A stretch of DNA of 64,000 bases from the NCBI GenBank assembly GCA_963402885.1, contig OY727097.1:18042001-18106000 (forward strand). The letters run 5' to 3'. Position numbers and translations under genes: made by a program. Every line of letters begins with the position of its first letter. Within the stretch, counting starts at the first letter, position 1. This document shows positions 12,698-64,000 of the stretch, piece after piece. The notes beneath the pieces are model-generated. The model was not told the DNA's origin. It did not search any database and saw only the letters and a list, made by a program, of their open reading frames with translations. Origin of the DNA: Antedon bifida. Lineage: Eukaryota; Echinodermata; Crinoidea; Comatulida; Antedonidae.

Positions 12698-15600
12698 CTA
12701 GATTTGAACTCGTCACTTTGACGAGTTAGTTATCCGCACGACAAGCGCCACGCGCACGTCATACGTTGGAATATTGCACACAGAAAAGATCATGGCATTT
12801 ATTACCTTATATCAAAACGAAGAGTGCCAGAGACCTACTAGGTCCCTGGATAAGTGTTTTACCAAAATTTAGTGAGTAGTTTTTACACGAATAGTAAAAT
12901 AGCCAATCAGAACCTAGTCTTATTTGGCCTGCTACATTATAGAAATAGGTAGGAAATAAATGATTTGGGCTATACCATTCCGTTACAGTCAGTATAACCA
13001 GTAAAATCTTTATACATATATTACATACAGTGTAGAATAGGTGAAATTACGGGACCTGCCATTTATTCCAATTTTTAACATGGCGACGGTATCAAAATGA
13101 AAAATAAAAGATAGCAATTTCGGAAGGATATTATCTCAGCAACAACATGTTAACGTGAAGAAGAAATTTGGATACGTAAAATATAGATGCGCGCTCTTTT
13201 AAATGTGATGAACTATGACGCAAAATATGAAAATACGACTTTTTTTATTCAACTGGCCATATAATGACGTCACAACGTCGGATTGGAAAAATGTTCACAT
13301 GAATTCGTATCTACAATACAATAGCTTCCAGGAAACGTTTTAATCATGATTATCACTTTTTATTCTGACGAGCTATAACAGATTGAAATTTACTGTAAAG
13401 ATGAAAATAAGTGACCCACGTTATTTACGTTTTTAGACATGATGACGTAATAAAAATTAAAATATTTTTAACTCATGCGAAAGATAGTTGATTGTCCTAG
13501 ACAATATCAAAATCGGGGTGAAAATGGAAAACGGATAAGTAGAGATGCGCTCTATTAAATGTGATGAGCTATGACGAAAGATACAAAAATCCTAAATTTT
13601 ATATTCGCGTGGCCATACGATGACGTCACAATGTCCGCTTAGCCATATTAATACACGATCCGATATCTACAACTCATCAACTTCAAGAATATGTCATCCA
13701 CAAAAAGTTGACCGTCCAGTTTAGAAATTACGACTGTTTAAAAAAAGGCATAATTTTGACGAATTTTTAAACTTTTTCATCAAAAACTCGCGAAAATTAT
13801 CCCATTCTACGTGCCCGTATGACGTGAGTTTAGGTCGAAATTGTTTAAAAGTTTGTAAAATTACTAGAAAAGGCTGGAAAAACATAAATCACGTGGAAAG
13901 TTTTTTGCGCTACGTGCGCACGCGTGCGTAACAAATTTGCGCGCGCCTGGGAATTTTTGACATGCTTAAAATGACATGAAACGCGTACAAAGTTGATTAG
14001 AAATTGATTTTTCGCATTATGAAATTTTAAACGCGCGTGCGCGCGTAACTTCGTGTGAAACATGTCATTTTTTTCCACAGTCAGTTAGCGCATGATATAA
14101 ATTAAACTTTTGCTAAGTTTCATTTGAAATTGTTATATGGTTTTCGATCTATGTTAAATACGCGAAAAACGTAAAAATGCGCGTAAGTCACGGTGCGCAA
14201 CTCTGACATCATTCACAATAAGAGGTGCACAACTTCATGTGAATACCTATATGTTGACAAAGTTATGAAATGTTATGTTTACATCCGCACGACAAACGCC
14301 ACGTGCACGTCATACGTTGGAATATTGCACACAGAAAAAGATTATGGCATTATGACCTGAACTGAAGAATATGATATGTTTTTATTGCTGAATTCTGTTA
14401 TTTTGTGTCATATCGTATACACAGTATAATCTGTATACATAGCACATACAGTGTAGAATAGGTGAAATTACGGGACTCGCTATTTATTCCAATTTTTAAC
14501 ATGTTAACGGATTCAAGATGAAATGAAACGCAAAGGCAGCAATTTTGGAAGGAAATTATCTCAACAACAAAATATTAACGTGTAGAAGAAATTTGAATAC
14601 GTGAAATATTGATGCGCGCTCTTTTAAATGTAATGAACTATGACGCAAAAGATGAAAATACGACTTTTTTAAGTCAAGTGGCCATATGATGACGTCACAA
14701 TATCCGATTGGCAAAATGTTAACATGAATTCGTATCTGCAATCCAATAGCTTCCAGAAAATGTTTTAATCGTGATTATCACATTTTATTCTTACTAGCTA
14801 TTACAGATTAAAATTAAAAAGATGAAATTAATGACCCACATAATTTAAATTTTTAGGCATGATGACGTCATAAAAATTAAAATATTTTTATCTCATGCAA
14901 AAAATAATTGATTGACCTAGACAATATTAAAATCTCGGAGAAAAAAGAATACAGATAAGCGTGATGCGCTACATTGAATGTGATGAGCAATAACGAAAGA
15001 GACAAAAATCCTATATTTTATATTCGGGTGGCCATACGATGACATCAGAATGTTTTTTTAGCCTTATTGATGCATGATCCGATATCTACAACTCATCAAC
15101 TTCTAGATTTTGTAATAAAAATAAACAGTTCACGGTTTACTTTAGAAACTATGACTGTTTTAAAAAAGACATTATTTTGACGATTTTTTAAGCTTTTTCA
15201 TTAAAAACGCGCGAATTGTCTAATTCGACGTGTTCGTATGGCGTTATTTAAAGTGGAAAAGGTCTAGATTGTTTTCAAAATTACTAGGAAAGGCTTGAAA
15301 AATATAATTCAAGAGAAAAAACATGTTTTTCATACTCCGTGCGCACCTTACGCATAAAATTTTTCGCGCACGCTGGAATTTTTGACATGTTCAAAATGTC
15401 ATGATCAGCGTTGATTAGAAATTAATTTTAAAATTTTAAATGCGCGTGCGCGCGTAACTTCTTGTGAAACATGCCATTTTTAATCCGTAGAAAGTTTGAC
15501 CTTGATATGACTTAAATTTTTATGAAGTGTCAATACAAAATGACTTTTGGTTTATAATCTATGACCTATCATTGAAATTCATAAAATTGCGCGTAACTTA

Positions 15601-19368: not shown

Positions 19369-19676
19369 GCACTGAGTGCGTAGACGAAAGTGTACGGGAA
19401 ACAAGTAAACAAGTAAGTAAATAAGCCTTTAAATCGGCGGCACACGTTCTTCTGGACATACATTACATACATTATGTTAGCCTGAAGGCTAAATAAAAGT
19501 ATAAAGAGAAAATAAAAGAAAAAACATTTATAAGAAAGGAAACGGATTGTACAAAAAAGAAACTAAAGAGCAAAAAAGTACAATACTTAACTTTGATTGA
19601 GTGTTATTATTAGGTTATATGCATGATATGCATATAACCTCTTGATTCTGTCAGGATCTTTATTTATTTATTTATT

Positions 19677-21301
19677 GGTTATCCGCCTCAAGCGGATAAG
19701 CCCTTGGAATTGTAGTGTTACTTTTTTTTTTCTTTTTTTTTATTATTCTTCTTTCTTTCTCAGATTTTGTGCACGCGTTTTCTCTTCAACGTGTTAACAT
19801 AACATGTTGTAACTTGGTCAACATTTAGACATTTAACTGAAGATGTTCAGCCAAGCTTTTGGACGCTGTCAGATCCGCGTAGCGTAAGTCACGCGCGATT
19901 TTCTGAAAATCTTAAATCGGTCATAACTTCGAAACCAATAAATATTTTTTAACGAAATTTTCAGCCACGTTTTCTTCACATCAATGGCTAACTTTTGGAA
20001 TGTTTAACAAATTTTTGGAGACTAGAAAGTTTTCGCGTAAATTGCGTTTGAAATATTTTACTCTTCTTATTTTGTGCACGCTGTTTCTCTTCAACGTGTA
20101 AACATAATATGTTGTAACTTGTTCAGCATTTAGACATTTTACTGAAGTTGTCCAGCCAAGCTTTTTGACGAAGTCAGAGCCGCGTAGCGTAAGTTACGCG
20201 TGATTTTCTGAAAATCTTAAATTGGTTATAACTTCGAAACAAACGAATATTTTTTAACGTCATTTTCAGCCACGTTTGCTTCACATCAATAGTTAACTTT
20301 TTTAACGCTACCGCAATTTGTAACATTAGAAAGTGCGCGCGTAAACGGCGTTTGAAATTTTAAAATGCTTCAAATCAATTTCTGATTAAATTAGAGCACG
20401 ATTCAGGTCATTTTAAGCGTTTAAAAAATTGCCACTGGTGCGCACATTTTTACGCGCGCACGGCGCAGGGAACACGTATGAGCATTTCTTTTACACGATT
20501 TGTGTTTTTAAATCTTCGGTTAACAATTTTACGTTATTTTATTCACTTTTCAACTTGAAATGGCGTTCTACGAGCACGTTAAACATAACAGGTTGCGCAC
20601 GAAAACGTCAACAAATTGTGAAAATGTTGCAAAATATGTCTACTTTTAAAAATGAAACAGTTCACCAGAATGCAAGGTTACCCCCATTTTTTATTTTATT
20701 TTCTTGCAGTGTATGAATCATAGGTCTAATTTATAATAGTCTTGAATGTTAAAAAGTGTTTGATGGCAACATTATTTGCATATTAAATGTAATTTTTGAA
20801 ATAATTATCATCAAACAAACATAAACATATTCAAAGAGTAAAACAATAAACATAACGTTTATCTTTTTTCTTTACATGTTAATATATAAAACTTGAAAGT
20901 ATGCACTTTCATAATATGTGACTGTTTAAAATTTGTGAAGATTTCATCATAGTAAAAATTATGATTTAAGTTCGATATGTAATAATCAACTTGCATCGAG
21001 GGGGTTCACGACATACCGAATGAACGAGGATTCTTTCTTCGGATTTTCTTCACCAGGTGCTCATATGGCTCGATGTGTAGTGCAACCGGCTTTGGTATCA
21101 GAGGTACCGGGTTCGAATCCCATCACGGGAAAACAATCAATTAACAGGATTTATTAGGTTATTACACTGAAAGGGCAGTTTTAATTTTGAATAGGCTACT
21201 TTTTTGGAAAAGTCATGATTGAAAAGTACTTGAATGCGCAAGATACGTTTGTTGCGGGCGGATAACCAAACTCGTCCTCAAGTGACGAGTTTCAGATCTA
21301 G
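19677..21301 (+). mobile_element. Inner Helitron-like element (GGTTATCCGC family)
   Basis: The 5' palindrome GGTTATCCGC CTCAA GCGGATAAGCC starts at 19677. The 3' end has GGCGGATAACC, the stem AACTCGTC ... GACGAGTT and CTAG (21298-21301), followed by T. Internally two blocks (about 19780 and 20075) repeat one another. A tRNA-like module with a good B box is at 21060-21131. No long open frame is seen, so it is non-autonomous. Confidence 0.8.
21060..21131 (+). tRNA. tRNA-like module within a Helitron-like element
   Basis: A-box-like TGGCTCGATGTGTAGTGC and the B box GGTTCGAATCC at about 21110-21120 lie 40-odd nt apart, as in tRNA genes. The cloverleaf is imperfect and I cannot assign an anticodon safely. 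It is more likely a tRNA-derived module of the repeat than a working tRNA. Confidence 0.4.
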
Positions 21302-22300
21302 TTTATTTATTCTTTCCTTAGCACTATTTTGTCCGTGAATTATCTTGGCATCAGTTTCATCTAGCTAAGTCAATTTTTCAGAGTATATTCCTTATGGCCA
21401 GGAATCGATGTGGTCATGTTTTCACGGTGCGCAATCATAAATTACGCGGTCTACGCGCGATTTAATGAAATCACGTTTGTAATCATATCTTCACAAGCAT
21501 GAATCACTTTTAAACAAAATTTGGTACTCATAAATTTCAGGTCATATTTCATCATATGGCAATATAATTACGTGCGTAGCGCATATAACGCATGCGTACG
21601 CGCGCTTAAAAGTTTTAAAATTGTCAAAATTTATTTTCGATGAAATTAGAGTACGTTTCAGGCAATTTTAAGCGTTTAAAAAATTGCCACGAGTGCGCAG
21701 AATTTTGCACGCGCACTGCGCGTTAAACGTTAATGCGCACTCTTTTTGCCCGATTTCTGTTTTACAATCTTTCTTTAATAATATCATCATATTTGATTCA
21801 CTTTTCAACTCGAAATTGCGTTATACAAGCACGTCAAAAGTGACAGGCTACGCACGTATAAGTTAACAAAATAGTGAAAATATGCTAAATTTTAAAATTA
21901 ATATATATCGTCAGAATGCTGGGGAACACCTATTTTTTATTTCATTTTCTTGAAGTGTATGTATCATATGTATGATTTATTATCAAATTAAGAGAACAAA
22001 AGTTGATTAAGTCATCATTAATTGCATATTGAATTAAAAAAAATTAATTTCGACAATCAAACAAATTTTGACATTTTCTTAGGCCGAAATAACAAACTTA
22101 ACATTAACTTTCTTTCTTAAGAATTTCATATATTAAAGTTAAAAGTATATAGTTTGACAGTGCATCATTTTTTTAAATTTTTAAAGATGTCATCATAGTA
22201 ATAAAATATAATTCATTGCGGTATGTAATAATCTATCTGCACCAAAGTGGCTACTGAATAGTAAATACACGGAGGAATCATTCTACATGTTTTAGTAAGT

Positions 22301-22371
22301 TGCGTATGGCTCGGTGGTCTGTGCTCGTGTCTATAGCATTCAAGGTACCGAGATCGAGCCTCACCTTGGGT
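22301..22371 (+). tRNA. tRNA-like module, second Helitron-like family
   Basis: TGGCTCGGTGGTCTGTGC (A-box-like) and GATCGAGCC (degenerate B box) at tRNA spacing, in a similar position relative to the element's 3' end as the module at 21060. A minus-strand copy is at about 39411-39475 in receptor intron 2. Confidence 0.35.
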
Positions 22372-22716
22372 AACGAAACGAAATAAGATTTTTTTTTATT
22401 ATTTGTATTGTTTGTTCAATTTTATTTCTTAGTGTATAGATTATACACATGATTTATAATGAAATCTAGATAAAAAGAAACTTATGTCTTTATTATTATG
22501 TAACAAATGTGGTTTATGACATTATACGCAGAGGGATCTTTGATAGGATTGCGATACCGGCTATTGTATTTGCGTTAGTAAGATCCTAGCATATATTATA
22601 AATAATTAAAGATTCTGAGAAAATCAATCAATCAATATATCTTTTACAAATCAATTATCTTTATTTTAATCAATGCATATAACCTATAATTCGTCATAGT
22701 GACGAATTAAATCTAG

Positions 22717-25650: not shown

Positions 25651-25924
25651 TTGAGTTTAACCTTTGCTTTACTGTGCTTTGATTTGCTGAGCAAGTTTGG
25701 CTGCCCCGCCCCCATATTCTGCCTACTAATTAGGATTCCCCAGCTTAGTACCCACAATCCACGTTATACGGAAGTCATAGTCTTGTGAAATACAGACACA
25801 ACACTTTTATCGTAATATATGAGGTATATTCAGAGCGTCATTCTGACGACTGGAGCATTCTCTACTTCCCTACGCCATTTATGCCTTTATTAACTTCAAT
25901 AATAGAAATAATACTACGGTAACT

Positions 25925-26425
25925 GCTCAAGTGGACCCAATTTAGCACCAGGGGAGCACAGTGATATAAAATAAAAATAAAGTCACGTTTAAGATTCAAT
26001 ATTTTCGTATTAATACACTGTGCTCAAGGGGACCAAATTTGGCGCCAGTGGAGCACAGTGATATAAAATAGAAATAAAGTCACTTAATTTTAATATCTTT
26101 TAGTATGTTAATACACTGTGCTCAAGTGTACCCAATTTTGCGTCAATGGAGCACAGTGATATAAAATAGAAATAAAGTCACTTAAGTTTCAATATCTTTT
26201 CGTATGTTAATACACTGTACTCAAATGGACCTAATTTGAAGTCACTTAAGTTTCAATATCTTTTCGTATGTTAATACACTGTGCTCAAGCGGAGCACAGT
26301 GATATAAAATAGAAATAAGTCACTGAATGTTAATATCTTTTCGTATGTTAATACACTGTGCCCGAGTGGACCCAATTAAGTTTAATATATTTTCGTATGT
26401 TAATACATTGTGCTCCAGTGGATCC
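25925..26425. repeat. Subterminal tandem repeat, left arm
   Basis: About five units of 85-115 bp with GTGCTCAAGTGGACCCAATT, TGGCGCCAGTGGAGCACAGT, GATATAAAATAGAAATAAAG and CAATATCTTTTCGTATGTTA. Unit-to-unit deletions are common. The flanking GTGCTC / GAGCAC words make each unit partly self-complementary. Confidence 0.85.
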
Positions 26426-49700: not shown

Positions 49701-52700
49701 TAAAAATGACAAAATGCGCAAATTAATTGCATCAAAGTGCTGAAAATGGTGAAAAATAATGCATTTTTAAAATGAAAATAATTCTTTAGAATGCAAGATG
49801 ACCCCCAATTTTTTTAACTTATTCTGGAAGCCATTAAGTTGTAGATATGAATTCATGTACACATTTTACGTACAAAATGTTTTGACGTCATCAAATGGCC
49901 ACTTGAATTTAAAAATTAGGATTTTTTATCTTTTTGTGTAGAATATCACATTCAACAGAGCGCATCTTGTTTATGTGTGCTCGAATTTTGCACAAATTTC
50001 AGTATGTGCTTGCTTAATTAATTATCTTTATCATGAGTTGACACTATTTTCTTTTTGATGACGTCATCATGCGTAAAAACTTGAATAACGTAGGCCGTGT
50101 AATTTCACCTTCGCAGTAAATTTGAATATCTTACAGCTCTTCAGAATTGAAGGTTACTTTGATGATTATAATTTGTTATGAAAGCTGATGAAATGTAGAT
50201 ATGAATTCATATAAAAATCAAGCCTATCGGATGTTGTGACGTTAACATATGGCCAGTTGATGTGAAAAAGTAGTTTTTTCATATTTTTCGTCAAAGTAAT
50301 ACACATTTCAAAGAGCGCGCACAGCGCTTCTACGTGCCAAATTTTTTTCCAAATCTTATATTTTTTTGCTCAATTAATTATCTTTCGAAATTGTCATCTT
50401 AAAGTTTTGTTTGATAACGCCATCATTCGAAAAAATTAGAACATGATGTGTGTCCCGTAATTTCACCTATGCTACACTGTATATAGATATACAGTATATA
50501 CTGTACATATTGTATATGGCATATAGGCACAACTCAGCACTATAAGCGTATAATAGGATGGCATACATCAACATTTTCCGATCGTATGTTAACGTACGTG
50601 CATGTTTAAAAAAAATTAATTTCAGTAAAATGATAAAAATGATCACCTATAATTCGTCAAAGTGACGAATTAAATTCTAGTGAGAAATTGTTTTTGTAAA
50701 ACAAAAAATGTTTCTTCGCAATTTCTTTCTGTACAGATTTTGTGTAACAAATATCTCAAAAAGTTTAATGTCAATGATTACCAAAATTTCTGAATGTCTT
50801 TCAAATACTTTAACTTAGTCCTAATAAGCTTTTCAGCGTGATCACTCATCCGTGACGTCATTTAGACGCCATTTTGTGAAATCACATTATCAATCATATC
50901 TCCATAATTCATTATCACATATTAATGAAATTCACTACACGTAAACTTTAGGTCAAGGGTAAAAATATTAACAAATAAAAACGCGCGCACACGTAGGGTC
51001 ATGCGCGTGAAATCGCGCGTTAAAAATTTAAAAAGCTCAAAATTAAGTTTTGATCAATTTAGAGCATGAATTAGGCCATTTGCGTGTTTCAAAAAATTAC
51101 TGCGCAAAAACACGTTTTTGCGCGTGCGTACATAGGAAGCGTAAAAAATAAAATTGTTTTGTACAAATTGCATTCTACTCATCTTCCTTAATACATTCAC
51201 CAAATTTGAGTCCATTCCGACTTAAAATAACGCTATATGAGCACGTTAAAAATGACAAAATGCGCACATTAATTGTACCAAAGTGCTGAAAATGGTGAAA
51301 AATAAGGCCTTTTGAAAATGAATATAAATCTTCAGAATGACAGGTGACCCCTAATTTTTTTAACTTATTCGGGAAGCCATTGGGTTGTAGATACATATTC
51401 ATGTACACATTAGACGTACAAAATGGTATGACGTCATCAAATGGCCACTTGAATTTAAAAATTAGTAATTTTTATCTTTTTGTGTGGGTTATCACATTCA
51501 ATAGAGCGCATCTCCGTTATTTGAGCCCGATTTTCGCAAAAATTTTAGAATGTGCTTGCTGAATTGATTATCTTTCTCATGGGTTGTAAACATTTTTATT
51601 TTGATGACGTCATCACGCGTAAAAACTTGAATAACCTAGGTCATGTAATTTTAGCTACACCATACATTTGAATATCTAATAGCTCTTCAGAATTAAAGGT
51701 GACCTTGAAGATTATAACTTATTATGAAAGCTGTTGAAATGTAGATATGAATTCATATAAAAATTAAGCCTATCGGATGTTGTGATGTTATCATATGGCC
51801 AGTTGAAGTTAAAACGTAGTTTTTAGATTTCTTTAGTCGAAGTTATACAAATTTCAATGAGCGCGCATTGCGCTTCTACGTATCAAATTTTCTTCCAATC
51901 CTTATATTTATTTGCTCAATTCATTATCTTTCGAAATTGTCATCTTCGAGTTTATTTTGATAATTCCATCATACCAACAAATTTGAACATGATGTGGGTT
52001 CCATAATTTCACCTATGCTACACTGTATATAGATATACAGTATATACTGTACATATTGTATATGACACATAAGAGGTACAACTCAGCACTATAAGTGTAT
52101 ATGCATCATGTCATAGGATGGCGTACATCAGCTTTTTACGATCGTATGTTAACGTATGTGCATGTTAAAAAATGTTAATTTCATTAAAATGATAAAAATG
52201 ATCACCTATAATTCGTCAAAGTGACGAATTAAATTCTAGTTTATTTTTTTTTTTATTTTTTTTATTCTTTCTGTACACTTTTTGTGTAACAAATATCTCA
52301 AAAAGTTGAATGGCAATGATCACAAACATTACACAATGTCTTTCAAATACTTTAACTTAGACATAATAAGCTTTTCAGCGTGATCACTCATCCGTGACGT
52401 CATTTATATGCCATTTTGTGAAATCACAATATCAATCATATCTTTACTATTCATTATCACATATTAATGAAATTCACTACAAGTAAACTTCAGGTCAAGG
52501 TAAAAATATTAGAAAATAAAAACTTGCGCGTTTCAAGGTCATGCGCGTGAAATCGCGCGTTAAAAATTTAAAAAGCCCAAAATTAAGTTTTGATCAATTT
52601 AGAGCATGAATCAGGCCATTTGCGTGTTTCAAAAAATTACTGCGCAAAAACACGTTTTTGCGCGTGCGTACATAGAATGCGTAAAAAATACAATTTTTTT

Positions 52701-55700
52701 GTACAAATTGCATTCTACTCATCTTCCTTAGTACATTCACTAAATTTGAGTCCATTCAGACTTAAAATAACGCTATACGAGCACGTTAAAAATGACAAAA
52801 TGCGCACATTAATTGTACAAAAGTGCTAAAAATGGTAAAAAATAAGGCCTTTTTAAAATGAATATAACTCTTCAGAATGGAAGATGACCCCCATTTTTTT
52901 TAACTTATTATGGAAGTTAATGAGTTGTAGATATAAATGTATATACCTATTAGACGTACAAAATGGTATGACGTCATCATTTGGCCACATGAATTTTTAA
53001 AATAGGGTTTTTTCCCATTTTGTCATAGACCACCATATTCAACAGAGCGTAACTCGCTTATCTGTGCTCGATTTTTTTTAAATTTTTAATATATTCTACC
53101 TCAACCAATTATGTTACTCATGAGTTGCCAATATTTTCATTTCGATGACGTCATCACATCTTAAAATTTGAATAACGGGGGTTACGTAATTTCACCTACA
53201 ACGTATAGTTGAATACCTTACATCTCTTCTGAATTAAAGTTGACCTTGATGTTTATAACTTATTATGAGAGCTGGTGAAATGTAGATATGAATGCATATA
53301 AAAATTAAGCCTATCGAATGTTATGAAGTTACCATATGGCCAGTTGAAGTTAAAAAGTAGTTTTTTCATCTCTTTCGTCAAAGTTATACACATTTTGAAG
53401 AGCGCGCACCGCGCTTCTACGTGCCAAATTTTCTTCTAATTGTTATATTTTATTGCTCAATTCATTATCTTTCGATATTGGTATCCACAAGTTTATTTTG
53501 ATAATGTCATCAGTGCAAAAAACTTAGAACATGATGTGTGTCCGTAATTTCACCAATGCTACACTGTATATAGATATACAGTATACTGTACATAATGTGA
53601 TATGACATATAATAGGCACAACTAAGCACTATAAGCGTATAATAGGATGGCATACATCAACATTTTCCGATCGTATGTTAACATACGTGCATGTTTAAAA
53701 AATATTAATGTCAATAAATTTATAAAAATGATCACCTATAATTCGTCAAAGTGACGAATTAAATTCTAGTTTTTTATTCTTTCTGTACACTTTTTGTGTA
53801 ACAAATATCTCAAAAAGTTGAATGGCAATGATCACAAAAATTACACAATGTCTTTCAAATACTTTAACTTAGACATAATAAGCTTTTCAGCGTGATCACT
53901 CATCCGTGACGTCATTTATACGCCATTTTGTGAAATCACAATATCAATCATATCTTTACTATTCATTATCACATATTAATGAAATTCACTACAAGTAAAC
54001 TTCAGGTCAAGGTAAAAATATTAGAAAATAAAAACTTGCGCGTTTCAAGGTCATGCGCGTGAAATCACGCGTTAAAAATTTAAAAAGCCCAAAATTAAGT
54101 TTTGATCAATTTAGAGCATGAATCAGGCCATTTGCGTGTTTCAAAAAATTACTGCGCAAAAAAAATATTTTGCGCGCGCAATACTTAAAAAGCGTAAAAA
54201 ATGCGAAATTTTTTTACAAATCGCATTCTACTCACCATCCTTAGTACATTCACCAAATTTGAGTGAGTTCCGACTTAAAATAACGCTATACGAGCAGGAT
54301 AAAAATGACAAAATGCGCAAATGAATTGCATCAAAGTGCTGAAAATGGTGAAAAATAATGCATTTTTAAAATGAAAATAATTCTTTAGAATGCAAGATGA
54401 CGCCCAATTTTTTTAACTTATTCTGGAAGCCATTAAGTTGTAGATATGAATTCATGTACACATTTTACGTACAAAATGTTTTGACGTCATCAAATGGCCA
54501 CTTGAATTTAAAAATTAGGATTTTTTATCTTTTTGTGTAGAATATCACATTCAACAGAGCGCATCTTGTTTATGTGTGCTCGAATTTCGCACAAATTTCA
54601 GTATGTGCTTGCTTAATTAATTATCTTTATCATGAGTTGACACTATTTTCTTTTTGATGACGTCATCATGCGTAAAAACTTGAATAACGTAGGCCGTGTA
54701 ATTTTACCTTCGCAGTAAATTTGAATATCTTACAGCTCTTCAGAATTGAAGGTTACCTTGATGATTATAATTTGTTATGAAAGCTGATGAAATGTAGATA
54801 TGAATTCATATAAAAATCAAGCCTATCGGATGTTGTGACGTTAACATATGGCCAGTTGAAGTGAAAAAGTAGTTTTTTCATATTTTTCGTCAAAATAATA
54901 TACATTTCAAAGAGCGCGCGCAGCGCTTCTACGTGCCAAATTTTTTTCCAAATCTTATATTTTTTGCTCAATTAATTATCTTTCGAAATTGTCATCTTAA
55001 AGTTTTGTTTGATAACGCCATCATTCGAAAAAATTAGAACATGATGTGTGTCCCGTAATTTCACCTATGCTACACTGTATATAGATATACAGTATATACT
55101 GTACATATTGTATATGGCATATAGGCACAACTCAGCACTATAAGCGTATAATAGGATGGCATACATCAACATTTTCCGATCGTATGTTAACGTACATGCA
55201 TGTTTAAAAAAAATTAATTTCAGTAAAATGATAAAAATGATCACCTATAATTCGTCAAAGTGACGAATTAAATTCTAGTTGTTATTAGGTGATCATTTAG
55301 AATAAAATGATCACCTATTGTTATTGTATAAAATCTTTATTATTTTTTTAGGTGATCATTTAGAATAAAATGATCACCTATTGTTATTGTATAAAATCTT
55401 TATTGGTTATCCGCAACTTAGTTGCAGGATAACCCATGTGATTGTAAATATCTTTTTTTTTTTCATCTTCTTTGTTATTCTTCTTTCTTTCCCGGATTTT
55501 TGTGTGTCGCATATCCCCTATTGCTTGTGAACGTAACTTTGTATAACTTTGTCAAAAGATTGGCCTGTAGCTGTAGATGTGCAAGAAACTTCGTTATATG
55601 ACGTTAGAGTCACGCAGCGTAAGTTACGTGCGATTTAATGAATTTCAATGATTGATCATAGATTATAAACCAAAAGTCATTTTGTATTGACACTTACTGA

Positions 55701-58700
55701 AAATTTAAGTCATATCAAGCGCAAACTTTCTATGGATTAAAAATGGCATGTTTCACAAGAAGTTACGCGCGCACGCGCATTTAAAATTTTAAAATGCGCA
55801 AAATTAATTTCTAATCAACTTTCTACGCTGATCATGACATTTTGAGCATGTCAAAAATTCCCACGCGCGCGAAAACATTTACGCGTAAGGTGCGCACGGA
55901 GCATGAAAATCATGTGTTTTTCTCTTGAATTATGATTTTCCAGCCTTTCCTAGTCATTTTAAAAAAGATTGACATCATTTCAAATTAAAATGATGTCATA
56001 CGAACACGTTGATTTAGACAATTTGCGTGCGTTTTAGTTGCAAAAGTGACAAAATATTGTCAAAATTATGCCTACTTTAAATCTATTATAGCTCCTCAGG
56101 ATCAACCGTTACCCCCAATTTTTTTAATTTAATATGTAAGCAGATATGTTGTAGATATGAATTCATGCAGAATCTTTACCCCTCGGATATTATGACGTCA
56201 TCGTATGGCCACACGAATGTAAAATATTGGATTTTTGACTGTTTCGTTATTGCTCATTACATTAAAGACCCCTTCCCTGCAATTTTGGACGTTTTTTGGA
56301 AAATAATACATATATATCACTTTAAAAACATTAAACCATGTCATTCCTTGTCTTAAATGTACGTTTTATGGTAAATTATGATAAAAGTGAGAAACAATGC
56401 ACTACCTAAGTAGCTCGCAGCGATCGACCTCTCGTGGACGGTCTTAGGCCTAGCCTAGCTAGGCTTAGTTTTGTAGGCCTAGCTGGTAAACATCGGTAAC
56501 GTACGAACATCGTACGCTAGCTATATACCTAGCCTGACGTTGTATAGTTGCTGTATTAATTGTCTTTCTATTTTTGCCAGACTCTGTTGATACAAATTGG
56601 GGAAAACCCGGTATTTTCGCTGAAAAGTTAGGAGTCTTCCATTTGTTTTGGCCTCACGATCGATCGAAAAGTGGGCGAATTACAGGTGAAAAACAAAAAT
56701 ATCAATCCGCGCGCAATGCATTTTGGGATTTATAGCGGGCCGCTATAATTATTAGAATCGACTTATTTTTCACATTATTAACCGTTTAAAGACGAAAAAA
56801 GTTATCGCAATAGGACCATATAGTATTATTTTTACATTAAATATAGTTTGTGATCTTAAATTAGATCTAAAAAACGTAGGGAAGGGGGCTTTAAATAGAG
56901 CGCATCTCACTTATACGTATTCCATTTCCTCATATATTTTAATACTGTCTAGGTCAATCAACTATCTTTCGCATGAGTTAAAAATATTTTAATTTTTATG
57001 ACGTCATCATGTCTAAAAATGTAAATAACCTGGTTCACCTATTTTCATCTTTACAGTAAATTTCAATCTGTTATAGCTCGTCAGAATAAAAAGTGATAAT
57101 CATGATTAAAACGTTTTCTGGAAGCTATTGGATTGTAGATACAAATTCATGTGAATATTTTGCCAATCAGATGTTGTGACGTCATTATATAGGCAGTTGA
57201 ATTCAAAAGGTCATATTTTCATCTCTTGCGTAAAAGTTCATTGCGTTTAAACGAGAGCGCATCTCTCTTTTACGTGCCCAAAATTCATCAAATTTGTATT
57301 AATGTAATTATTTAGATAATTATCTTAATATAAAATATCTTTATATGTCAATTTGATGATGTCATCGTGTTAATAATTGGATTTAAAAGATGGGTCTCGT
57401 AATTTCGTCTATGCTACACTGTATATAACATACAATGTATTCTGTAAATACTGTAATATGCTGTATGCTACAAAATAGGTACAATTCAACACTGTAAACA
57501 TACTTAATTTATGTCACAGGATGGCATAACAATTTTCGAAGTTCATATAGTTTAAAGTATGTGCATGTTGCATTTGCGCGGATAACCCGAACTCGTCAAA
57601 GTGACGAGTTCAAATCTAGTTCTTCTTCTTCTTCTTCTTTCTGTACACTTTTTGTGTAACAAATATCTCAAAAAGCTAAATGTCAATGATTACCAAAATT
57701 TCACAATGTCTTTCAAATACTGTAACTTAGTCCTAATAAGCTTTTCAGCGTGATCACTCATCCGTGACGTCACGTATACGCTATTTTGTGAAATCACATT
57801 ATCAATCATATCTCCATAATTCATTATCACGTATTATTGAAATTCACTACACGTAAACTTCAGGTCAAGGTAAAAAATATTAATAAATAAAAACTTGCGC
57901 GTTTCAAGGTCATGCGCGTAAAATCGAGCGTTAACATTTTAAAAAGCTCAAAATTAAGTTTTGATCAATTTAGAGCATGAATTAGACCATTTGCATGTTT
58001 CAAAAAATTACTGCGCAAAAACACGTTTTTGCGTACGCAATTCTTAAAAAGCGTAAAAAATAAAATTTGATGTATACATCACATTCTACTCACAATCCTT
58101 AGTACATTCTTCGACTTTGAGTCCATTCCGACTTAAAATAACGCTATACGAGCATGTTAAAAATGACAAAATGCGCACATTAATTGTACAAAAGTGCTAA
58201 AAATGGAATGGAAGGTGACCCCCAATTTTTTTAACTTAATATGGAAGCCAATAAGTTGTAGATATAAATGTATACACACATTAGACGTACAAAATGGTAT
58301 GACGTCATCAAATGGCCACTTGAATTTAAAAATTAGGAATTTTTATCTTTTTGTGTAGATTATCACATTCAATAGAGCGCATCTCCGTTATTTGAGCCCG
58401 ATTTTTGCACAAATTTCAGTATGTGCTTGCTTAATTATTTAACTTTCTCATGAGTTGTCAGCGTTTTCATTTTGATGACGTCATCACGTGTAAAAACTTG
58501 AATAACCTGAGTCGTGTAATTTCACCTACACCATACAGTTGAATATCTTACAGCTTTTCAGAATTAAAAGTGACCTTGAAAATTTTAACTTATTTAGAAA
58601 GCTGATGAAATGTAGATATGAATTCATATAAAAATTAAGCCAAACAAATGTTGTGATGTTTTCATATAGCCAGTTGAAGTTAAAAAGTAGTTTTTAAATT

Positions 58701-61700
58701 TCTTTTGTCAAAGTTATACAAATTTCAAAGAGCGCGCATTGCGCTTCTACGTATCAAATTCTCTTCCAATTCTTATATTTATTTGCTCAATTCATTATCT
58801 TTCGAAATTGTCATCTTCGAGTTTATTTTGATAATTCCATCATACCAAAAAATTTGAACATGATGTGGGTTCCATAATTTCACCTATGCTACACTGTATA
58901 TAGATATACAGTATATACTGTACATATTGTATATGGCATATAATAGGCACAGCTCAACACTATAAGCATATAATAGGATGGAATACATCATCATTTTCTG
59001 ATCGTATGTTAACGTACGTGCATGTTTAAAAAAAATAATTTCGGTAATTAATTAATCAATTAATGTCAATAAAATGATAAAAATGATCACCTATAATTCG
59101 TCAAAGTGACGAATTAAATTCTAGTTTCTTTTTATTCTTTCTGTACACTTTTTGTGTAACAAATATCTCAAAAAGTTTAATGTCAATGATTACCAAAATT
59201 TCACAATGTCCTTTAAATACTTTAACTTAGCCATAATAAGCTTTTCAGCGTGATCACTCATCCGTGACGTCATTTATACGCCATTTTGCGAAATCACATT
59301 ATCAATCATATCTCCATAATTCATTATCACATATTAATGAAATTCACTAAACGTAAACTTCAGGTCAAGGGTAAAAATATTAGCAAATAAAAACACTCGC
59401 GCACGTAGGGTCATGCGCGTGAAATCGCGCGTTAAAAATTTAAAACGCTCAAAATTAAGTTTTGATCAATTTAGAGCATGAATTAGGCCATTTGCGTGTT
59501 TCAAAAAATTACTGCGCAAAAACACGTTTTTGCGCGTGCGTACATAGGAAGCGTAAAAAATAAAATTGTTTTGTACAAATTGCATTCTACTCATCTTCCT
59601 TAATACATTCACCAAATTTGAGTCCATTCCAACTTAAAATAACGCTATATGAGCACGTTAAAAATAACAAAATGCGCACATTAATTGTACCAAAGTGCTA
59701 AAAAAGGGTAAAAATAAGGTCTTTTTAAAATGACCCCCATTTTTTTAAACTTATTATGGAAGTTAATGAGTTGTAGATATAAATGTATATACACATTAGA
59801 CGTACAAAATGGTATGACGTCATCATTTGGCCACATGAATTTTTAAAATAGGGTTTTTTCCCACTTTGTCATAGACCACCATATTCAATAGAGCGCAAGT
59901 AGCTTATCTGTGCTCAATTTTTTTTAAATTTTTAATATATTCTACCTCAACCAATTATGTTACTCATGAGTTGCCAATATTTTCATTTCGATGACGTCAT
60001 CCCGTCTTAAAATTTGAATAACGGTGGTTCCGTAATTTCACCTACAATGTATAGTTGAATACCTTACAGTTCTTCTGAATTAAAGTTGACCTTGATGTTT
60101 ATAACTTATTATGATAGCTGGTGAAATGTAGATATGAATGCATATAAAAATTAAGCCTATCGAATGTTATGAAGTTACCATATGGCCAGTTGAAGTTAAA
60201 AAGTAGTTTTTTCATCTCTTTCGTCAAAGTTATACACATGTTGAAGAGCGCGCACCGCGCTTCTACGTGCCAAATTTTCTTCTAATTGTTATATTTTATT
60301 GCTCAATTCATTATCTTTCGATATTGGTATCCACAAGTTTATTTTGATAATGTCATCAGTGCCAAAAACTTAGAACATGATGTGTGTCCGTAATTTCACC
60401 AATGCTACACTGTATATAGATATACAGTATATACTGTATATAATGTATATGGCATATAATAGGCACAACTAAGCACTATCAGCGTATAATAGGATGGCAT
60501 ACATCAACATTTTCCGATTGTATGTTAACATACGTGCATGTTTAAAAAATATTAATGTCAATAAATTTATAAAAATGATCACCTATAATTCGTCAAAGTG
60601 ACGAATTAAATTCTAGTTATTCTTCTTTCTGTACACTTTTTGTGTAACAATTATCTCAAAAAGTTGAATAGCAATGATCACAAAAATTTTACAATGTCTT
60701 TCAAATACTTTAACTTAACCATAATAAGCTTTTCAGTGTGATCACTCAACCGTGACGTCATTAATACGCGATTTTGTGAAATCACACTATCAATCATATC
60801 TCCATAACTCTTTATCACATATCAATGAAATTCACTACACGTAAACTTCAGGTCAAGGGTAAAAATATTAGCAAATAAAAACTTACGCGTTTCAAGGTCA
60901 TGCACGTGAAATTGCGCGTTAAAAATTTAAAAAGCTTCAAATTAAGTTTTGATCAATTTAGAGCATGAATTAGGTCATTTGCGTGTTTCAAAAAATTACT
61001 GCGCAAAAACATGTTTTTGCGCGCGCGATACTTAAAAAGCGTAAAAAATACGAATTTTTTGTACAAATCGCATTTTACCCACCATCCTTAGTACATTCAC
61101 CAAATTTGAGTCCGTTCCGACTTAAAATAACGCTATACGAGCAGGTTAAAAATGACAAAATGCGCACATTAATTGCATCAAAGTGCTGAAAATGGTGGAA
61201 AATAGGTCTTTTTTAAAATGAAAATAACTTTTCAGAATGCAAGATGACCCCTAATTTTTTTAACTTATTCGGGAAGCCATTGAGTTGTAGATATGAATTC
61301 ATGTACATATTTGACGTACAAAATGTTGTGACCTCATCAAATGGCCACTTGAATTTAAAAATTAGGATTTTTTAACTTTTTGTGTAGTTTATCACATTCA
61401 ACAGAGCGCATCTCGGTTATTTGTGCTCGAATTTCTCAAAAATTTTAGTATGTGCTTGTTTAATTATTTATCTTTCTCATGAGTTGTCGGCGTTTTCATC
61501 TTGATGACGTCATCATGCGTACAGATTTGAATAACGTAGGTCGTGTAATTTCACCTACACCATACATTTGAATATCTTACAGCTCTTCAGAATTAAAGGT
61601 GACCTTGAAGATCATAACTTATTAAAAAAGCTGATGAAATCTAGATAATAAAAAATAAGCCTATCGGATGTTGAGATGTTATCATATGGCCAGTTGAAGT

Positions 61701-64000
61701 TAAAAAGTAGTTTTTAAATTTCTTTAGTCAAAGTTATACAAATTTGAAAGAGCGCGCATTGCGCTTCTACGTGCCAAATTTTCTTCCAATTCTTATATTT
61801 ATTTGCTTAATTCATTATATTTCGAAAGGTGTCAACTTCAAGTTTATTTTGATAATTCCATCATACCAAAAAATTAGAACATGATGTGTGTCCCGTAATT
61901 TCACCTATGCTACACTGTATATAGATATACAGTATATACTGTACATATTGTATATGGCATATAATAGGCACAACTCAGCAGCACTATAAGCGTATAATAG
62001 GATGGCATACATTACATCAACATTTTCCGATCGTATGTTAACATACGTGTATGTTTAAAAAAAATTAATTTCGGTAAAATGATAAAAATGATCACCTATA
62101 ATTCGTCAAAGTGACGAATTAAATTCTAGTTGTTGTTTTTGTTATTATTCTTTCTGTACACTTTTGTGTAACAATTATCTCAAAAAGTTGAATAGCAATG
62201 ATCACAAAAATTGTACAATGTCTTTCAAATACTTTAACTTAACCATAATAAGCTTTTCAGTGTGATCACTCAACCGTGACGAAAATAATACGCGATTTTG
62301 TGAAATCACACTATCAACCATATCTCCATAATTCATTATCACATATCAATGAAATTCACTACACGTAAACTTCATGCCAAGGGTAAAAATATAAGCAAAT
62401 AAAAACTTGCGTGTTTCAAGGTCATGCGCGTGAAATCACGCATTAAAAATTTAAAAAGCTCAAAATTGAGTTTTGATCAAATTAGAGCATGAATTAGGCC
62501 ATTTGCGTGTTACAAAAAATTACTGCGCAAAAACACGTTTTTGCGCACACAAATTTTAAAAAGCATAAAAAATAAAATTTGATGTATACATCACATTCTA
62601 CTCAAGATCCTTAGTACATTCACCGATTTTGAGTCCATTCCGACTTAAAATAACGCTATACGAGCACATTAAAAATGACAAAATGCGCACATTAATTTCA
62701 CAAAAGTTCTGAAAATGGTGAAAAATAGGTCTTTTTTAAAATGAAAATAACTCTTCAGAATGCAAGATGACCCCCAATTTTGTTATCTTATTCGGGAAGC
62801 CATTGAGTTGTAGATATGAATTCATGTACACATTTGACGTACAAAATGTTGTGACGTCATCAAATGGCCACTTGAATTTAAAATTAAGTTTTTTTCTCTT
62901 TCGTCATATAATTATCACATTCAATAGAACGCATCTCTGTTATTTTGTGCCTGATTTTTGCTCAAATTTTAGTATGTGATTTCTCAAATAATTGGCTTTC
63001 TCATGACTTGCCACTATTTTCATTTTGATAACGTCATCACGCGTAAAACTTTGAATAACGTAGGTCGTGTAATTTTAACTTTGCTGTGAATTTAAATATC
63101 TTACAGCTGTTCAGAATTGAAGGTTACCTTGATTATTATAATTTATTATGAAAGCTAATGAAATGTAGATATGGATTCATATAAAAATCAAGCCTATCGG
63201 ATGTTGTGACTTTAACATATGGCCAGATGAAGTTAAAAAGTAGTTTTTTCATCTTTTTCGTCAAAGTTATACAAATTTCAAAGAGCGCACACAGCGCTTC
63301 TACGTGCCAGATTCTCTTCCAATTCTTATATTTATTTGCTCAATTCATAATCTTTCGAAATTGCCATTTTCGAATTTATTTTGATAATTCCATCATACGA
63401 AAAAAATTAGAACATGATATGTGTCCCGTGATTTCACCTATGCTACACTGTATATAGATATACAGTATATACTGTACATATTGTATATGGCATATAATAG
63501 GCACAACTCAGCACTATAAGCGTATAATAGGATGGTATACATCAACATTTTCTGATCGTATGTTAACGTACGTGCATGTTTAAAAAAAAATTAATTTCAG
63601 TAAAATGATCACCTATAATTCGTCAAAGTGACGAATTAAATTCTAGTATTTAAAATTGTACCTGTATCTGAACTTTAAAAATCTACTCTTGTATGGCCAA
63701 CAACTGTTTTCAATTGTTTTTTTCTTTTATAAGCAGATAGATGGTACACTACTACAGGTGATGAAAAGGCATGCCTATTGTGCGAGAAAGGATTTAGTGT
63801 TAATCCTGAACAAACAGACTGCTTGCAAAATGATATTGTTTACCTTGAATGGTCTTCATCGGCTACAATTTTACTAATTGTGTTTGTGATACTAGGAATG
63901 ATATTGGCCATAGGTTGTCTAACAGTATATATCAGGTATCGTAATACACCCACAATCAAAGCTACAAGTACTGAGCTAAGCTATGTCCTTGGTATCGGAG
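37038..64000 (+). CDS. Class C G-protein-coupled receptor, exons 1-8 (continues past window)
   Basis: Eight exons with matching phases encode about 693 residues: signal peptide (about 1-22), an atypical extension to about residue 154, then a venus-flytrap ligand-binding domain, a cysteine-rich domain and the first transmembrane helix. Matches include GDVIIGGLFPVH, LGYDIRDDCSDTSRAL, IPQISYSATAAEFS, PYFFRTVPSDKHQA, YGIEGREELE, TWIACDSWA, CPSGTYQK, CCWLCEPC and RYRNTPTIKATSTELSYVL. Residues that bind the amino-acid head group in metabotropic glutamate receptors appear kept (Ser in GKSS, Thr in YSAT, Tyr in NYGIEG, Asp in ACDSW). The distal glutamate-binding Arg and Lys do not. The MIYAI/LGY region aligns best with calcium-sensing receptors, so the ligand is probably an amino acid or cation other than glutamate; this is inference. 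The start ATG at 37038 has TAA in frame two codons upstream. The remaining six helices lie beyond 64000. Confidence 0.95.
37712..38340 (+). mobile_element. Truncated Helitron-like copy abutting the exon 1 donor
   Basis: Similarity to the element at 45854 (its inside, near 46070) begins about 6-12 bp after the exon 1 splice site, with ATTTTATGAATTT and TTGTATTGACACTT. It ends with GCGGATAACT, an imperfect TGTCA/TGACGAG stem and CTAG at 38337-38340. The 5' palindrome is missing and much of the middle is deleted. Confidence 0.7.
38525..38600. repeat. CGATCGGGA-type inverted words in receptor intron 1
   Basis: AGACGATCGGGA and TCCCGATCATCTTAC form an imperfect hairpin, followed by GTATCGTCTGATG and GGTCCCGATTGTGAC. 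It is related to the GC-rich hairpin at 18197. Confidence 0.5.
38819..38945 (+). CDS. Receptor exon 2
   Basis: 127 nt, phase 0 in and 1 out. Encodes QTLDFIDANSDEG ... VKTVGVVGTGKSSTSK ... VVSDLL, the ligand-pocket loop that is GPGSSS in mGluR1 and GATGSG in CaSR. Acceptor TTTAG, donor GTAAGT. Confidence 0.92.
39042..39083. repeat. 42-bp perfect palindrome, 2-nt loop
   Basis: AAGTTTAGTTTATTTTCAGC (39042-39061), CA, then its exact complement to 39083. It sits exactly at the 3' end of a minus-strand Helitron-like copy in receptor intron 2. Confidence 0.95.
39064..39850 (-). mobile_element. Inverted, decayed copy of the TATGCA-family Helitron-like element
   Basis: Read on the minus strand it matches about 21900-22716: tRNA-like module at 39411-39475, then TGCATATAACCTATAATTCG and a stem whose second arm is mutated (GTGACTATT), ending TTAG instead of CTAG. 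The 5' half is absent. Confidence 0.7.
40538..40854 (+). CDS. Receptor exon 3
   Basis: 317 nt, phase 1 in and 0 out. Encodes LFKIPQISYSATAAEFSKKS, PYFFRTVPSDKHQAHVM and KKYKWNLVDIIYSNDNYGIE, conserved lobe-1/lobe-2 hinge segments. The Thr (YSAT) and Tyr (NYG) that contact the amino-acid moiety in related receptors are present. Confidence 0.95.
40903..41622. mobile_element. Foldback MITE in receptor intron 3
   Basis: Nested inverted blocks: GAGAGAGTTTATT ... GATGGGCTGATTATGTAGAT (40907-40962) against its complement at 41563-41618, and TCAAGAGCCACACAGCTAAT (from 41106) against its complement ending about 41354. Nearly the whole 720 bp can fold on itself. A (CATT)n microsatellite at 41013-41040 lies in the left arm. 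No target duplication is clear. Confidence 0.8.
41727..41923 (+). CDS. Receptor exon 4
   Basis: 197 nt, phase 0 in and 2 out. Encodes VIFTFCGKNYISKILKEADK, TNKTWIACDSWANS and VVHGMLGVIPMSG; the Asp of ACDSW corresponds to the ligand-contacting Asp of mGluRs. The reverse open frame is a shadow. Confidence 0.94.
42081..42298 (+). CDS. Receptor exon 5
   Basis: 218 nt, phase 2 in and 1 out. Encodes YLLKINPYTNTNPFYKQTLE ... CSLSNSEKRQC and DIWSAFVMDSVYAFAYALDD. This helix carries a Lys (K409) that binds the glutamate side chain in mGluR1; here the aligned position is Trp, so glutamate itself is a less likely ligand. Confidence 0.94.
42299..42766. other. Receptor intron 5
   Basis: AT-rich intron sequence; no repeat end, RNA gene or second exon is apparent. 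Confidence 0.6.
42767..42888 (+). CDS. Receptor exon 6
   Basis: 122 nt, phase 1 in and 0 out. Encodes YIKNVSFKGVTKERFGFDNN and GDPYARYKIFNLQ, the conserved end of the flytrap domain (F..G..V.FD..GD....Y.I.N.Q). Confidence 0.94.
42986..43172 (+). CDS. Receptor exon 7: start of cysteine-rich domain
   Basis: 187 nt, phase 0 in and 1 out. Contains GRCSESCPSGTYQ and ACCWLCEPCQ, the first half of the nine-cysteine domain that couples the flytrap to the membrane bundle. The donor is CCAAG|GTGATC. The open frame reading past it is intron. It is followed by the 20.6-kb intron 7. Confidence 0.94.
43389..45457. repeat. 2-kb segment bounded by 29-bp inverted repeats
   Basis: ATATGTGTACAGCCACATCA plus AAACCAGGC at 43389-43417 is repeated inverted at 45429-45457. 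The interior holds a tandem repeat (about 44035-44430, unit near 175 bp, with GGTACCAGTATTTTATTTGT and GTTGAACCAGCACCTGGCCT). It also holds a TAGGCCTA cluster. It may be a non-autonomous DNA element whose true ends I could not fix. Confidence 0.45.
44625..44795. repeat. TAGGCCTA cluster in receptor intron 7
   Basis: Dense CTAGGCCTAGGCC, CTAGCTAGCTAGGCCTA and TAGTAGGCCTAGGCC words. Low-complexity and self-complementary, as at 18275. Confidence 0.8.
45854..47418 (+). mobile_element. Helitron-like element, GGTTATCC family
   Basis: 5' palindrome GGTTATCCGCAAC TTA GTTGCGGATAACC (45854-45882). The 3' end has GCGGATAACCC, the stem AACTCGTCA/TGACGAGTT and CTAG at 47415-47418. Sits in the T-rich tract behind the GATCACC palindrome at 45791. 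Confidence 0.85.
47429..49031 (+). mobile_element. Helitron-like element, GGTTTTCC family
   Basis: 5' palindrome GGTTTTCCGCAAC GAA GTTGCAGGAAAACC from 47429. The 3' end has GGCGGAAAACC, the stem AACTCGTCA/TGACGAGTT and CTAG at 49028-49031. The body resembles the minus-strand copy at 12698. A (CATCAT)n tract is at about 47480. Confidence 0.85.
49039..50680 (+). mobile_element. GATCACC-family element a, with two stacked 5' palindromes
   Basis: AGGTGATCATTTAG ... TGATCACCT occurs at 49039-49068 and again at 49094-49123, then the body and a CTAG end at 50677-50680. TGACGTCA lies at 49308, 49883 and 50059. The body is nearly identical to that at 53775-55278. Confidence 0.82.
50681..52239 (+). mobile_element. 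GATCACC-family element b, body and 3' end
   Basis: Follows the previous CTAG directly, without its own 5' palindrome; body begins near CTTTCTGTACAG. Its first half (ACGTAGGGTCATGCGCG) is shared with the copy ending at 60616. Confidence 0.78.
52240..53769 (+). mobile_element. GATCACC-family element c, body and 3' end
   Basis: Starts in a long T tract then CTTTCTGTACAC. The second half (GGAAGTTAATGAGTTG, CAAAATGGTATGACGTCATC, ACGGGGGTTACG) is shared with the second half of the copy ending at 60616. Confidence 0.78.
53770..55278 (+). mobile_element. GATCACC-family element d, near-duplicate of a
   Basis: Matches the body 49170-50680 almost base for base, including the word GCGCAAAAAAAATATTTTGC, at an offset of about 4.6 kb. 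It points to a recent duplication. Confidence 0.8.
55405..57619 (+). mobile_element. GGTTATCC-family element interrupted by a TTAA MITE
   Basis: 5' palindrome GGTTATCCGCAAC TTA GTTGCAGGATAACC from 55405, after two GATCACC palindromes (55287, 55350). The 3' end has GCGGATAACCC, the stem and CTAG at 57616-57619. Closely related to the element at 45854. A 625-bp MITE occupies 56266-56890. Confidence 0.83.
56266..56890. mobile_element. 625-bp MITE with TTAA target duplication
   Basis: Inverted ends AGACCCCTTCCCT and AGGGAAGGGGGCT, flanked by TTAA at 56262-56265 and 56891-56894. The paralogous element near 46700 is uninterrupted at this point, giving an empty-site reference. A TTAA target suggests piggyBac-type mobilisation; no transposase is encoded. 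It contains a TAGGCCTA cluster at about 56447-56480. Confidence 0.85.
57620..59124 (+). mobile_element. GATCACC-family element e, body and 3' end
   Basis: Begins after a CTTCTT tract. Shares GATGTATACATCACATTCTA with the last copy of the nest. CTAG end at 59121-59124. Confidence 0.78.
59125..60616 (+). mobile_element. GATCACC-family element f, mosaic copy
   Basis: The first half follows element b (50681) and the second half follows element c (52240). The changeover is near 59720-59740, where about 30 bp are also missing. CTAG end at 60613-60616. Confidence 0.78.
60617..62129 (+). mobile_element. GATCACC-family element g, body and 3' end
   Basis: No 5' palindrome of its own. CTAG end at 62126-62129. 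Chance open frames within it recur in sister copies. Confidence 0.78.
62130..63646 (+). mobile_element. GATCACC-family element h, last of the nest
   Basis: CTAG end at 63643-63646, only 111 bp before receptor exon 8. One of its CRE-type palindromes is degraded (GTGACGAAAATAA at about 62275). Confidence 0.78.
63758..64000 (+). CDS. Receptor exon 8 (partial): end of cysteine-rich domain and helix 1
   Basis: Acceptor CTACAG at 63752-63757, phase 1. Encodes DEKACLLCEKGFSVNPEQTD C, then helix 1 (ATILLIVFVILGMILAIGC) and the first intracellular loop RYRNTPTIKATSTELSYVL. Relative to mGluR1 about four residues are missing at the exon 7/8 junction of the cysteine-rich domain, though all expected cysteines are present. 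The exon runs off the window. Confidence 0.94.

Follow-up and report, generated by a model that had tools for sequence, protein, structure and literature searches.

Background

Why do several families of Helitron-like repeats, each with its own short word at both ends, lie side by side in one locus of the crinoid Antedon bifida, and do the two words of an element have to match? The locus is a stretch of 64,000 nucleotides (C10:18042001-18106000), here called the window. An earlier, sequence-only reading of it had noted that the 5' and 3' words change together from family to family, and had proposed that matching ends are needed for mobilization. It missed the cause of the clustering of families, which is nested self-insertion.

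The repeats are HINEs (non-autonomous Helentrons) about 1.6 kb in length. We consider it very probable that the locus is best explained by HINEs with family-specific words that insert, in the same direction, into a T-rich tract of one another, giving arrays whose ends match in last-in-first-out order. The data establish the anatomy of the ends, the match of their words, the landing site, the near-uniform orientation and the bracket order of the arrays.

Anatomy and classification of the elements

The thirteen exact-pattern hairpin ends in the window (12 on the plus strand and one on the minus strand) share one plan at the 3' end: a family word, 0-3 nt, AAYTCGTCA, 3 nt, TGACGARTT, 4-6 nt and CTAG|T. 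An exception among the 3' ends of the window is that at 21272, which has a longer loop. The 3' word stands 30-35 nt ahead of the element's 3' end, before the common hairpin and CTAG. The 5' end opens with a hairpin straight after TT; the word forms its first arm, and the second arm is identical to the 3' word. The words that the sequence-only reading had listed are present in the window within one base of where it placed them, and the stem of the 3' hairpin is indeed of two types, with AATTCGTCA accompanying the A and F words and AACTCGTCA the B, C and D words. Families and features of the window are collected in Table 1; in additional hairpin forms, the C loop is joined to either the D or the B word.

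As marks of a canonical Helitron (Helitron1), we used a 5' TC start, the lack of inverted repeats and insertion between A and T. The elements described here begin with AGG, AGT or GGT after TT and carry matched words at both ends, and their likeness to Helitron1 is limited to the 3' CTAG, which is consistent with CTRR. HINEs are marked by subterminal inverted repeats of about 12-15 bp, with a palindromic 5' copy, by a stem-loop near the 3' end, by insertion into TT or T-rich sequence with no duplication of the target and by the absence of coding capacity. With the 3' hairpin as the sole criterion, we chose 20 regions. A 5' hairpin lies 1.4-1.7 kb upstream in 15 of them; in the other five there is none in range. 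In all 15 regions with a hairpin, its second arm is identical to the 3' word over 10-12 nt. The 3' stem-loop AAYTCGTCA-NNN-TGACGARTT, 4-6 nt ahead of CTAG, has a folding energy of -7.2 and -8.0 kcal/mol, and four 5' hairpins folded as DNA give -10.3 to -14.9 kcal/mol. The Helentron-like character first assigned to these elements is supported. Stop-to-stop frames of at least 150 aa are absent from the arrays of the window, and the sole such frame within the window is a receptor exon. TT precedes and TT follows the element in 15/15 cases, where the search patterns already demanded one T per side; no empty site was recovered.

The receptor exon belongs to the surroundings of the arrays. An exon-like frame with an ANF_receptor match lies at 37035-37742 (+), and further plus-strand frames at 40507-40875, 42019-42321 and 42977-43273 may form one class C receptor gene together with it; this gene would then extend through 43273. 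Two inverted-repeat pairs are also present, at 25816-27921 and 31536-33609 (87% alike) and at 33694-34809 and 35661-36792 (76% alike), both with short tandem repeats inside.

Table 1. End words of the families and features of the window. Capital letters are 5' hairpins and small letters are 3' ends; hairpins were paired with distant 3' words by bracket order.
Feature	Positions	Strand	Remarks
Family A			5' word AGGTGATCATTT; 3' word TGATCACC, tail AAATTCTAG
Family B			5' word GGTTATCC; 3' word GGATAACC
Family C			5' word GGTTTTCC; 3' word GGAAAACC; loop GCAACGAAGTTGCA
Family D			5' word AGTTATCCGC; 3' word GCGGATAACT
Family F			5' word AGGTTATATGCAT; 3' word TGCATATAACCT; both ends also present in locus L037
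Family D element	12698..15875	-	AGTTATCCGC ... GCGGATAACT; 15875(-) pairs with word at 12728(-)
Decayed GGTTATCC element inside the D element			hairpin 15820, broken 3' end near 14283
Nest of two	19612..22716	+	outer family F, AGGTTATATGCAT ... TGCATATAACCT; 19612 pairs with 22674
Inner GGTTATCC element in T-rich tract of F	19677-21301	+	19677 pairs with 21260
Decayed family D 3' end	38301..38341	+	no 5' hairpin detected upstream
Array 1	45721..55278	+	A A B b C c A A a a a a; balanced nest, 6 elements
Family A 5' hairpin, outermost element	45721..45750	+	word AGGTGATCATTT; partner 3' word 55238
Family A 5' hairpin	45791..45820	+	partner 3' word 53729
Family B element	45854..47418	+	GGTTATCC ... 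GGATAACC; 45854 pairs with 47379
Family C element	47429..49031	+	GGTTTTCC ... GGAAAACC; 47429 pairs with 48992
Family A 5' hairpin	49039..49068	+	partner 3' word 52199
Innermost family A element	49094..50680	+	unbroken from hairpin to CTAG; 49094 pairs with 50640
Family A body and 3' end	50681..52239	+	host 5' hairpin at 49039
Family A body and 3' end	52240..53769	+	host 5' hairpin at 45791
Family A body and 3' end	53770..55278	+	host 5' hairpin at 45721
Array 2	55287..63646	+	A A B b a a a a; two A hairpins against four A 3' ends (2 surplus bodies)
Family B element within array 2	55405..57619	+
Four family A bodies	57620..63646	+	3' ends 59124, 60616, 62129, 63646

The words of the two ends change together

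In the 315.6-Mb genome, the 3' end pattern has 2231 + 2229 exact matches (0 + 0 for the reversed-pattern control), and three 5' patterns have 628+750, 711+616 and 729+652 (0 for all controls). Genome-wide exact-pattern totals are 1378 5' and 1610 3' for family A, 1381 and 1358 for family D, and 1327 and 986 for families B plus C, but the 5' and 3' patterns are unequally inclusive, so these figures are no balance sheet of 5' and 3' words. The B/C 5' pattern missed one B variant, which a separate variant search recovered.

Arrays were parsed on contig C1 up to 19.1 Mb and in the window. Coordinate lists for C1 hold exact pattern matches only, among the matches listed, and decayed ends escape them; up to 19.1 Mb they comprise 250 hairpins and 217 3' ends. 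Tokens past 19.1 Mb and 6 duplicate hairpins were left out. The 5' hairpin detector demanded a conserved stretch behind the hairpin and one preceding T. From the window we dropped chance hairpins, such as that at 44623, and wrong-strand readings of the palindromic 3' hairpin.

Among neighbouring 5'-3' pairs spaced by 0.8-1.8 kb in the first 19.1 Mb of C1, 120/124 carry the same word (A 41, B 25, C 10 and D 44), against 37.3±5.0 when labels were shuffled (maximum 56 in 10,000 shuffles). The four mismatches are one B-D, one D-B and two A-B pairs. Without the missed hairpin variant, 107/118 pairs match; the variant search placed hairpins where 7 of the 11 earlier mismatches required them, and the other 4 stay unexplained. 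Simple two-token clusters are word-matched in 55/55 cases, and 20 hairpins and 19 3' ends stand alone, with no partner among the C1 matches listed. The covariation that the sequence-only reading suggested looking for is therefore present in the C1 pairs, in the simple clusters and in the 15 sampled copies with a hairpin, and the many unmatched copies that would have counted against it are not seen (4/124 and 0/55). The data support the view that 5' and 3' words change together far beyond chance, which would fit a requirement for matching ends.

The match might also reflect shared descent only, both ends diverging with their family while matching itself is not needed. Words are largely fixed per family, so ancestry does give a match in any single copy. 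The hairpins themselves make this account unlikely. Hairpins of three different words, whose second arms differ accordingly, share the loop GCAACGAAGTTGCA. A list of 100 of the 1,327 B/C hairpins contains 21 with this type of loop that read GGTTTTCC/GGAAAACC, one of them with a one-base loop change, and 12 that read GGTTATCC/GGATAACC; among 100 listed hairpins of another search, whose pattern leaves out the first base, 4 read AGTTATCC/GGATAACT with the same loop. The fifth base is complementary to its partner in all 100 listed B/C hairpins (21 T/A and 79 A/T). Since C-loop hairpins carry three different words, each with a matching second arm, the change of the word while the remainder of the hairpin stays would argue for constraint rather than mere descent. 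The 3' words also follow the 5' words in the C1 pairs, and for three separate stretches to change together more than once requires constraint or repeated exchange of ends.

Many arrays read as nests in bracket order

Within the arrays of the window, 5' hairpins that precede an element often belong to another, outer element. The hairpins at 45721 and 45791, for example, are foreign to the element starting at 45854. That reading would have yielded to evidence that the 5' palindromes are separate insertions: the extra hairpins are indeed foreign to the adjoining element, but they are the starts of outer elements that close further downstream.

An example on C1 is a 20-kb array at C1:9946172-9965231, which reads A A a C A C D d c D D d C c d a D d D B b d c a. 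This string consists of 12 perfectly nested pairs with four end words, and the coordinates alone give the same string. If the hairpins are kept in place, the 3' labels can be arranged in 110,880 ways, of which one fits by our own count. The C loop is present in the second D hairpin of this array, and ACATG, the common tail of C elements, stands at the 3' end paired with it. This agrees further with nesting, though ACATG is also found on another D element (L063). Because such nests interleave, the four words were active in overlapping times. A smaller case, locus L048, is a nest of two.

The C1 sequence up to 19.1 Mb holds 30 multi-element clusters, each with at least 2 hairpins and at least 2 3' ends. 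In these, the innermost open hairpin matches 102/126 3' ends; for 22 others no hairpin of the right word is open, and 2 cross. Of the 30 clusters, 14 are balanced; 25 hairpins remain unclosed. When 3' labels were shuffled within clusters, there were 64.7±4.4 matches (maximum 80 in 5,000 shuffles), 16.5±2.1 crossings (minimum 9) and 8.5 balanced clusters (maximum 13). Two B 3' ends outside the exact pattern account for one of the observed crossings (C1:17905437).

Order is most complete below 15 Mb of C1, where 45/46 3' ends match, none cross and 11/12 clusters are balanced, 9 of them truly nested. From 15 to 19.1 Mb, 57/80 3' ends match and 3/18 clusters are balanced; this part holds 21 of the 22 3' ends without an open hairpin and all 25 unclosed hairpins. 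The densest stretches of listed hairpins and 3' ends on C1 lie at 15.2-15.46 Mb and 18.5-20.8 Mb, and bracket order is eroded in their parsed part (to 19.1 Mb).

The first 10 kb of one array (C1:17905380-17915379) led us to expect b, d, d and a as the next 3' ends; this expectation, put in writing as the letters were first read, chose four small windows. From C1:17905380 onward, b, d, d, an extra d and then an A body with its 3' end listed at 17922079 were found, and there was one extra b too. Elsewhere on C1, four D hairpins (14027907-14028099) are followed by four D 3' ends, and six A hairpins (19291231-19291571) by at least 7 A 3' ends, one above the model's count. Nesting also predicts an order of age, and here it finds no support: in a comparison by likeness to eight A and six D solo copies, which is confounded by subfamily structure, deeper, presumably younger, copies were closer to the solo copies in 16/42 pairs, so that older hosts are unsupported.

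Surplus bodies and other routes to tandem arrays

A process besides nesting acts at sites with surplus bodies, because surplus bodies and open hairpins occur at 15-19.1 Mb of C1, array 2 of the window has two surplus bodies, and A bodies three units apart in the window are more alike than next neighbours (a1/a4 99.1% and a3/a6 95.4% identical, against 86-89% for next neighbours in both runs). Loss of tandem stubs and unequal exchange are candidates, and the likeness of bodies three units apart suggests some unequal exchange, judging from sequence identity. Satellite-like unequal crossing-over, starting from one or two elements, might accordingly be held to have built the arrays as a whole, and both the identities and the surplus bodies would suit it. 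Such exchange cannot, however, put four word families in bracket order or stack hairpin stubs that are cut after TT in the landing tract. We regard it as quite improbable as the origin of the arrays; it may have acted on top of nesting. The hairpin repeats with periods of 55, 63 and 70 were also considered as simple slippage, which we set aside, as hairpins stacked from different families are spaced and cut in a similar way, though slippage may still add identical stubs or remove them.

The arrays are scarcely credible as rolling-circle concatemers, in which replication passed the 3' terminator and copied an element several times head-to-tail: tandem Helitron arrays have been ascribed to bypassed termination or rolling-circle multimers in the accounts available to us (PMC4067079, PMC5876387, PMC12628747), and same-family runs with surplus bodies do exist, but a concatemer should read hairpin-body-hairpin-body of one family, whereas these arrays stack hairpins, close their 3' ends in reverse and mix families of different words, and first-in-first-out pairing fits 60/126 3' ends against 102 for the nest. 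For mixed arrays, the reverse-order closing and the mixing of families largely refute it.

Landing site and proposed mechanism

In 22 cases of one hairpin standing behind another (the window and sampled arrays), the stub of the host ends 25-50 nt behind its hairpin, in the T-rich tract, after TT. Of the 22 stubs, 7 end at one identical point, CTTTATT|, 25 nt behind the hairpin of the host. For all 22, the detector had asked for one preceding T. On the far side of the guest stand CTAG, then T, then the remaining tract and the body of the host. Orientation is nearly uniform: neighbouring 3' ends less than 2.6 kb apart on C1 share a strand in 97/100 cases. Among hairpins on C1 that follow a same-strand token within 2.6 kb, 117/133 do so at less than 200 nt and 16/133 stand further off. 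A bodies at 50681-50740 of the window and around 2016 of L062 start with GAGAAATTGTTTTTGTAAAA in place of the T-rich tract, a variant common to both.

A simple series of steps would account for these arrangements. A Helentron Rep/helicase would nick between TT and the 5' word and unwind the element, and termination would take place at the CTAG behind the cognate word and hairpin. We infer that a matching word is needed for mobilization. The copy would then enter a T|T site, with its orientation set by the T-rich strand. Elements bring their target with them: a T-rich tract that lies 25-50 nt behind the 5' hairpin. Guests of the host's own family or of others land there in the same direction, splitting the host into a short 5' hairpin stub and a body with the 3' end. 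Repeated landing produces head-to-tail arrays whose hairpins and 3' ends pair like brackets, in last-in-first-out order. A T-strand-specific target within the element would explain the common direction, the stacks of hairpins and the scarcity of guests inside bodies. This is why the families lie side by side: newcomers enter older elements just behind the 5' hairpin and in the orientation of the host. We propose that the surplus bodies at 15-19 Mb of C1 arose by loss of tandem hairpin stubs or by gain of bodies through recombination.

Candidate machinery and the role of the word

An autonomous Helentron would be expected to encode a Rep/helicase with an AP endonuclease fused at its C terminus, and to have end words in common with the HINEs. 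Autonomous partners were sought through the Helitron Rep domain (PF14214), which has 39 matches in the genome, 38 above the cut-off. Open frames of 1,377-3,182 aa contain 25 of the 39, one of them with a stop. An OTU domain lies 2.2-3.0 kb upstream on the same strand for 23/39 Rep matches; because the same frame length is listed for both domains in 20 of these 23, OTU and Rep probably share one frame. Long open frames in which Rep and OTU domains occur are numerous on contigs C7-C16 and reach 3,182 aa, which suggests Helentrons with recent or continuing movement. No long frame was found in a 700-base stretch downstream of one Rep copy (L068, C8:19821500-19822199), whose three-frame translation contains an apparent direct repeat. 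The sequence-only reading had called for a Rep-helicase partner for each end type; the Rep part is present, in counts that apply to the genome as a whole rather than to each end word.

One Rep could bind the matching words as its site at either end of the element, or the words could serve a strand-pairing test of the 5' arm against the 3' word; the C-loop hairpins with three words agree with both. In a more specific version, the machinery would test the pairing of 5' arm and 3' word on the displaced strand, and not the word itself. This pairing code is a tentative suggestion, and we think it somewhat doubtful. If it were true, one Helentron would mobilize many word families without cross-talk, running through non-cognate 3' ends and halting at none but the cognate one. 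Mixed-end elements are scarce in the C1 pairs and clusters although nests give many chances for them. This scarcity and the interleaving of four words in one nest would agree with the pairing code, and equally with a separate Rep for each word.

The nested arrays offer a way to ask which features mark a Helentron 3' end as the correct one. The families jumped into each other, so that a host that later moved with a guest inside would pass a complete non-cognate 3' end. The distinct end words also act as natural bar codes: tandem Helitron arrays can be nests, and an intact array records the order of insertion.

Comparison with known systems

Palindromic subterminal repeats that match at both ends and carry family-specific words have been published as a hallmark of HINEs, according to the parts of the literature available to us (PMC4067079, PMC2374699, PMC7492417). 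The view that matched words, or several word families in one genome, are unusual is not upheld, as both have been published for HINEs in the consulted parts of two of these accounts (PMC4067079, PMC2374699). Matched words at both ends and multiple word families per genome were already known; what is unexpected is the array. No description of last-in-first-out Helentron arrays was found in the portions of the literature searched.

A close likeness is to the HINEs and Helentrons of the mite Metaseiulus occidentalis, which have palindromic 12-15-bp subTIRs, a 3' stem-loop, a TT or T-rich target and several families per genome, in the sections consulted (PMC4067079). HINE-Mo-1 to 7 carry palindromic subTIRs (Thomas et al. 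2014, PMC4067079), and the 3' subTIR lies 38-60 bp from the end. The same sections name OTU proteins as Helentron cargo, ascribe tandem Helitron clusters to bypassed termination and call a similar pattern possible for Helentrons; unlike the arrays reported here, nested arrays of readable order are not described in them.

As in Drosophila DINE-1, subTIRs are present at both ends and vary, there between species, with the structure kept (Yang and Barbash 2008, PMC2374699), and the sections consulted also describe a 3' hairpin, a TT target and a simple-sequence tract near the 5' end. Unlike DINE-1, for which the table rows consulted give one word per species, one genome here holds several words. 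Crassostrea gigas Cg_HINE likewise has 11 HINE types in one genome, subTIRs, a 5' inverted repeat, a 3' palindrome and T-rich targets, but is organized around internal tandem repeats in the parts of the account available (PMC7492417), unlike the self-insertion behind the 5' hairpin found here.

FoHeli of Fusarium oxysporum shares Helitron2-type inverted repeats and hairpins that vary by subgroup, as far as the sections consulted go (PMC5148889). Some FoHeli copies have several short 5' termini and one 3' terminus, ascribed there to self-insertion, and one tandem case is left between insertion into the 5' end and rolling circle. Unlike FoHeli, for which those sections describe few cases, several word families share one array here, and a bracket order separates both readings.
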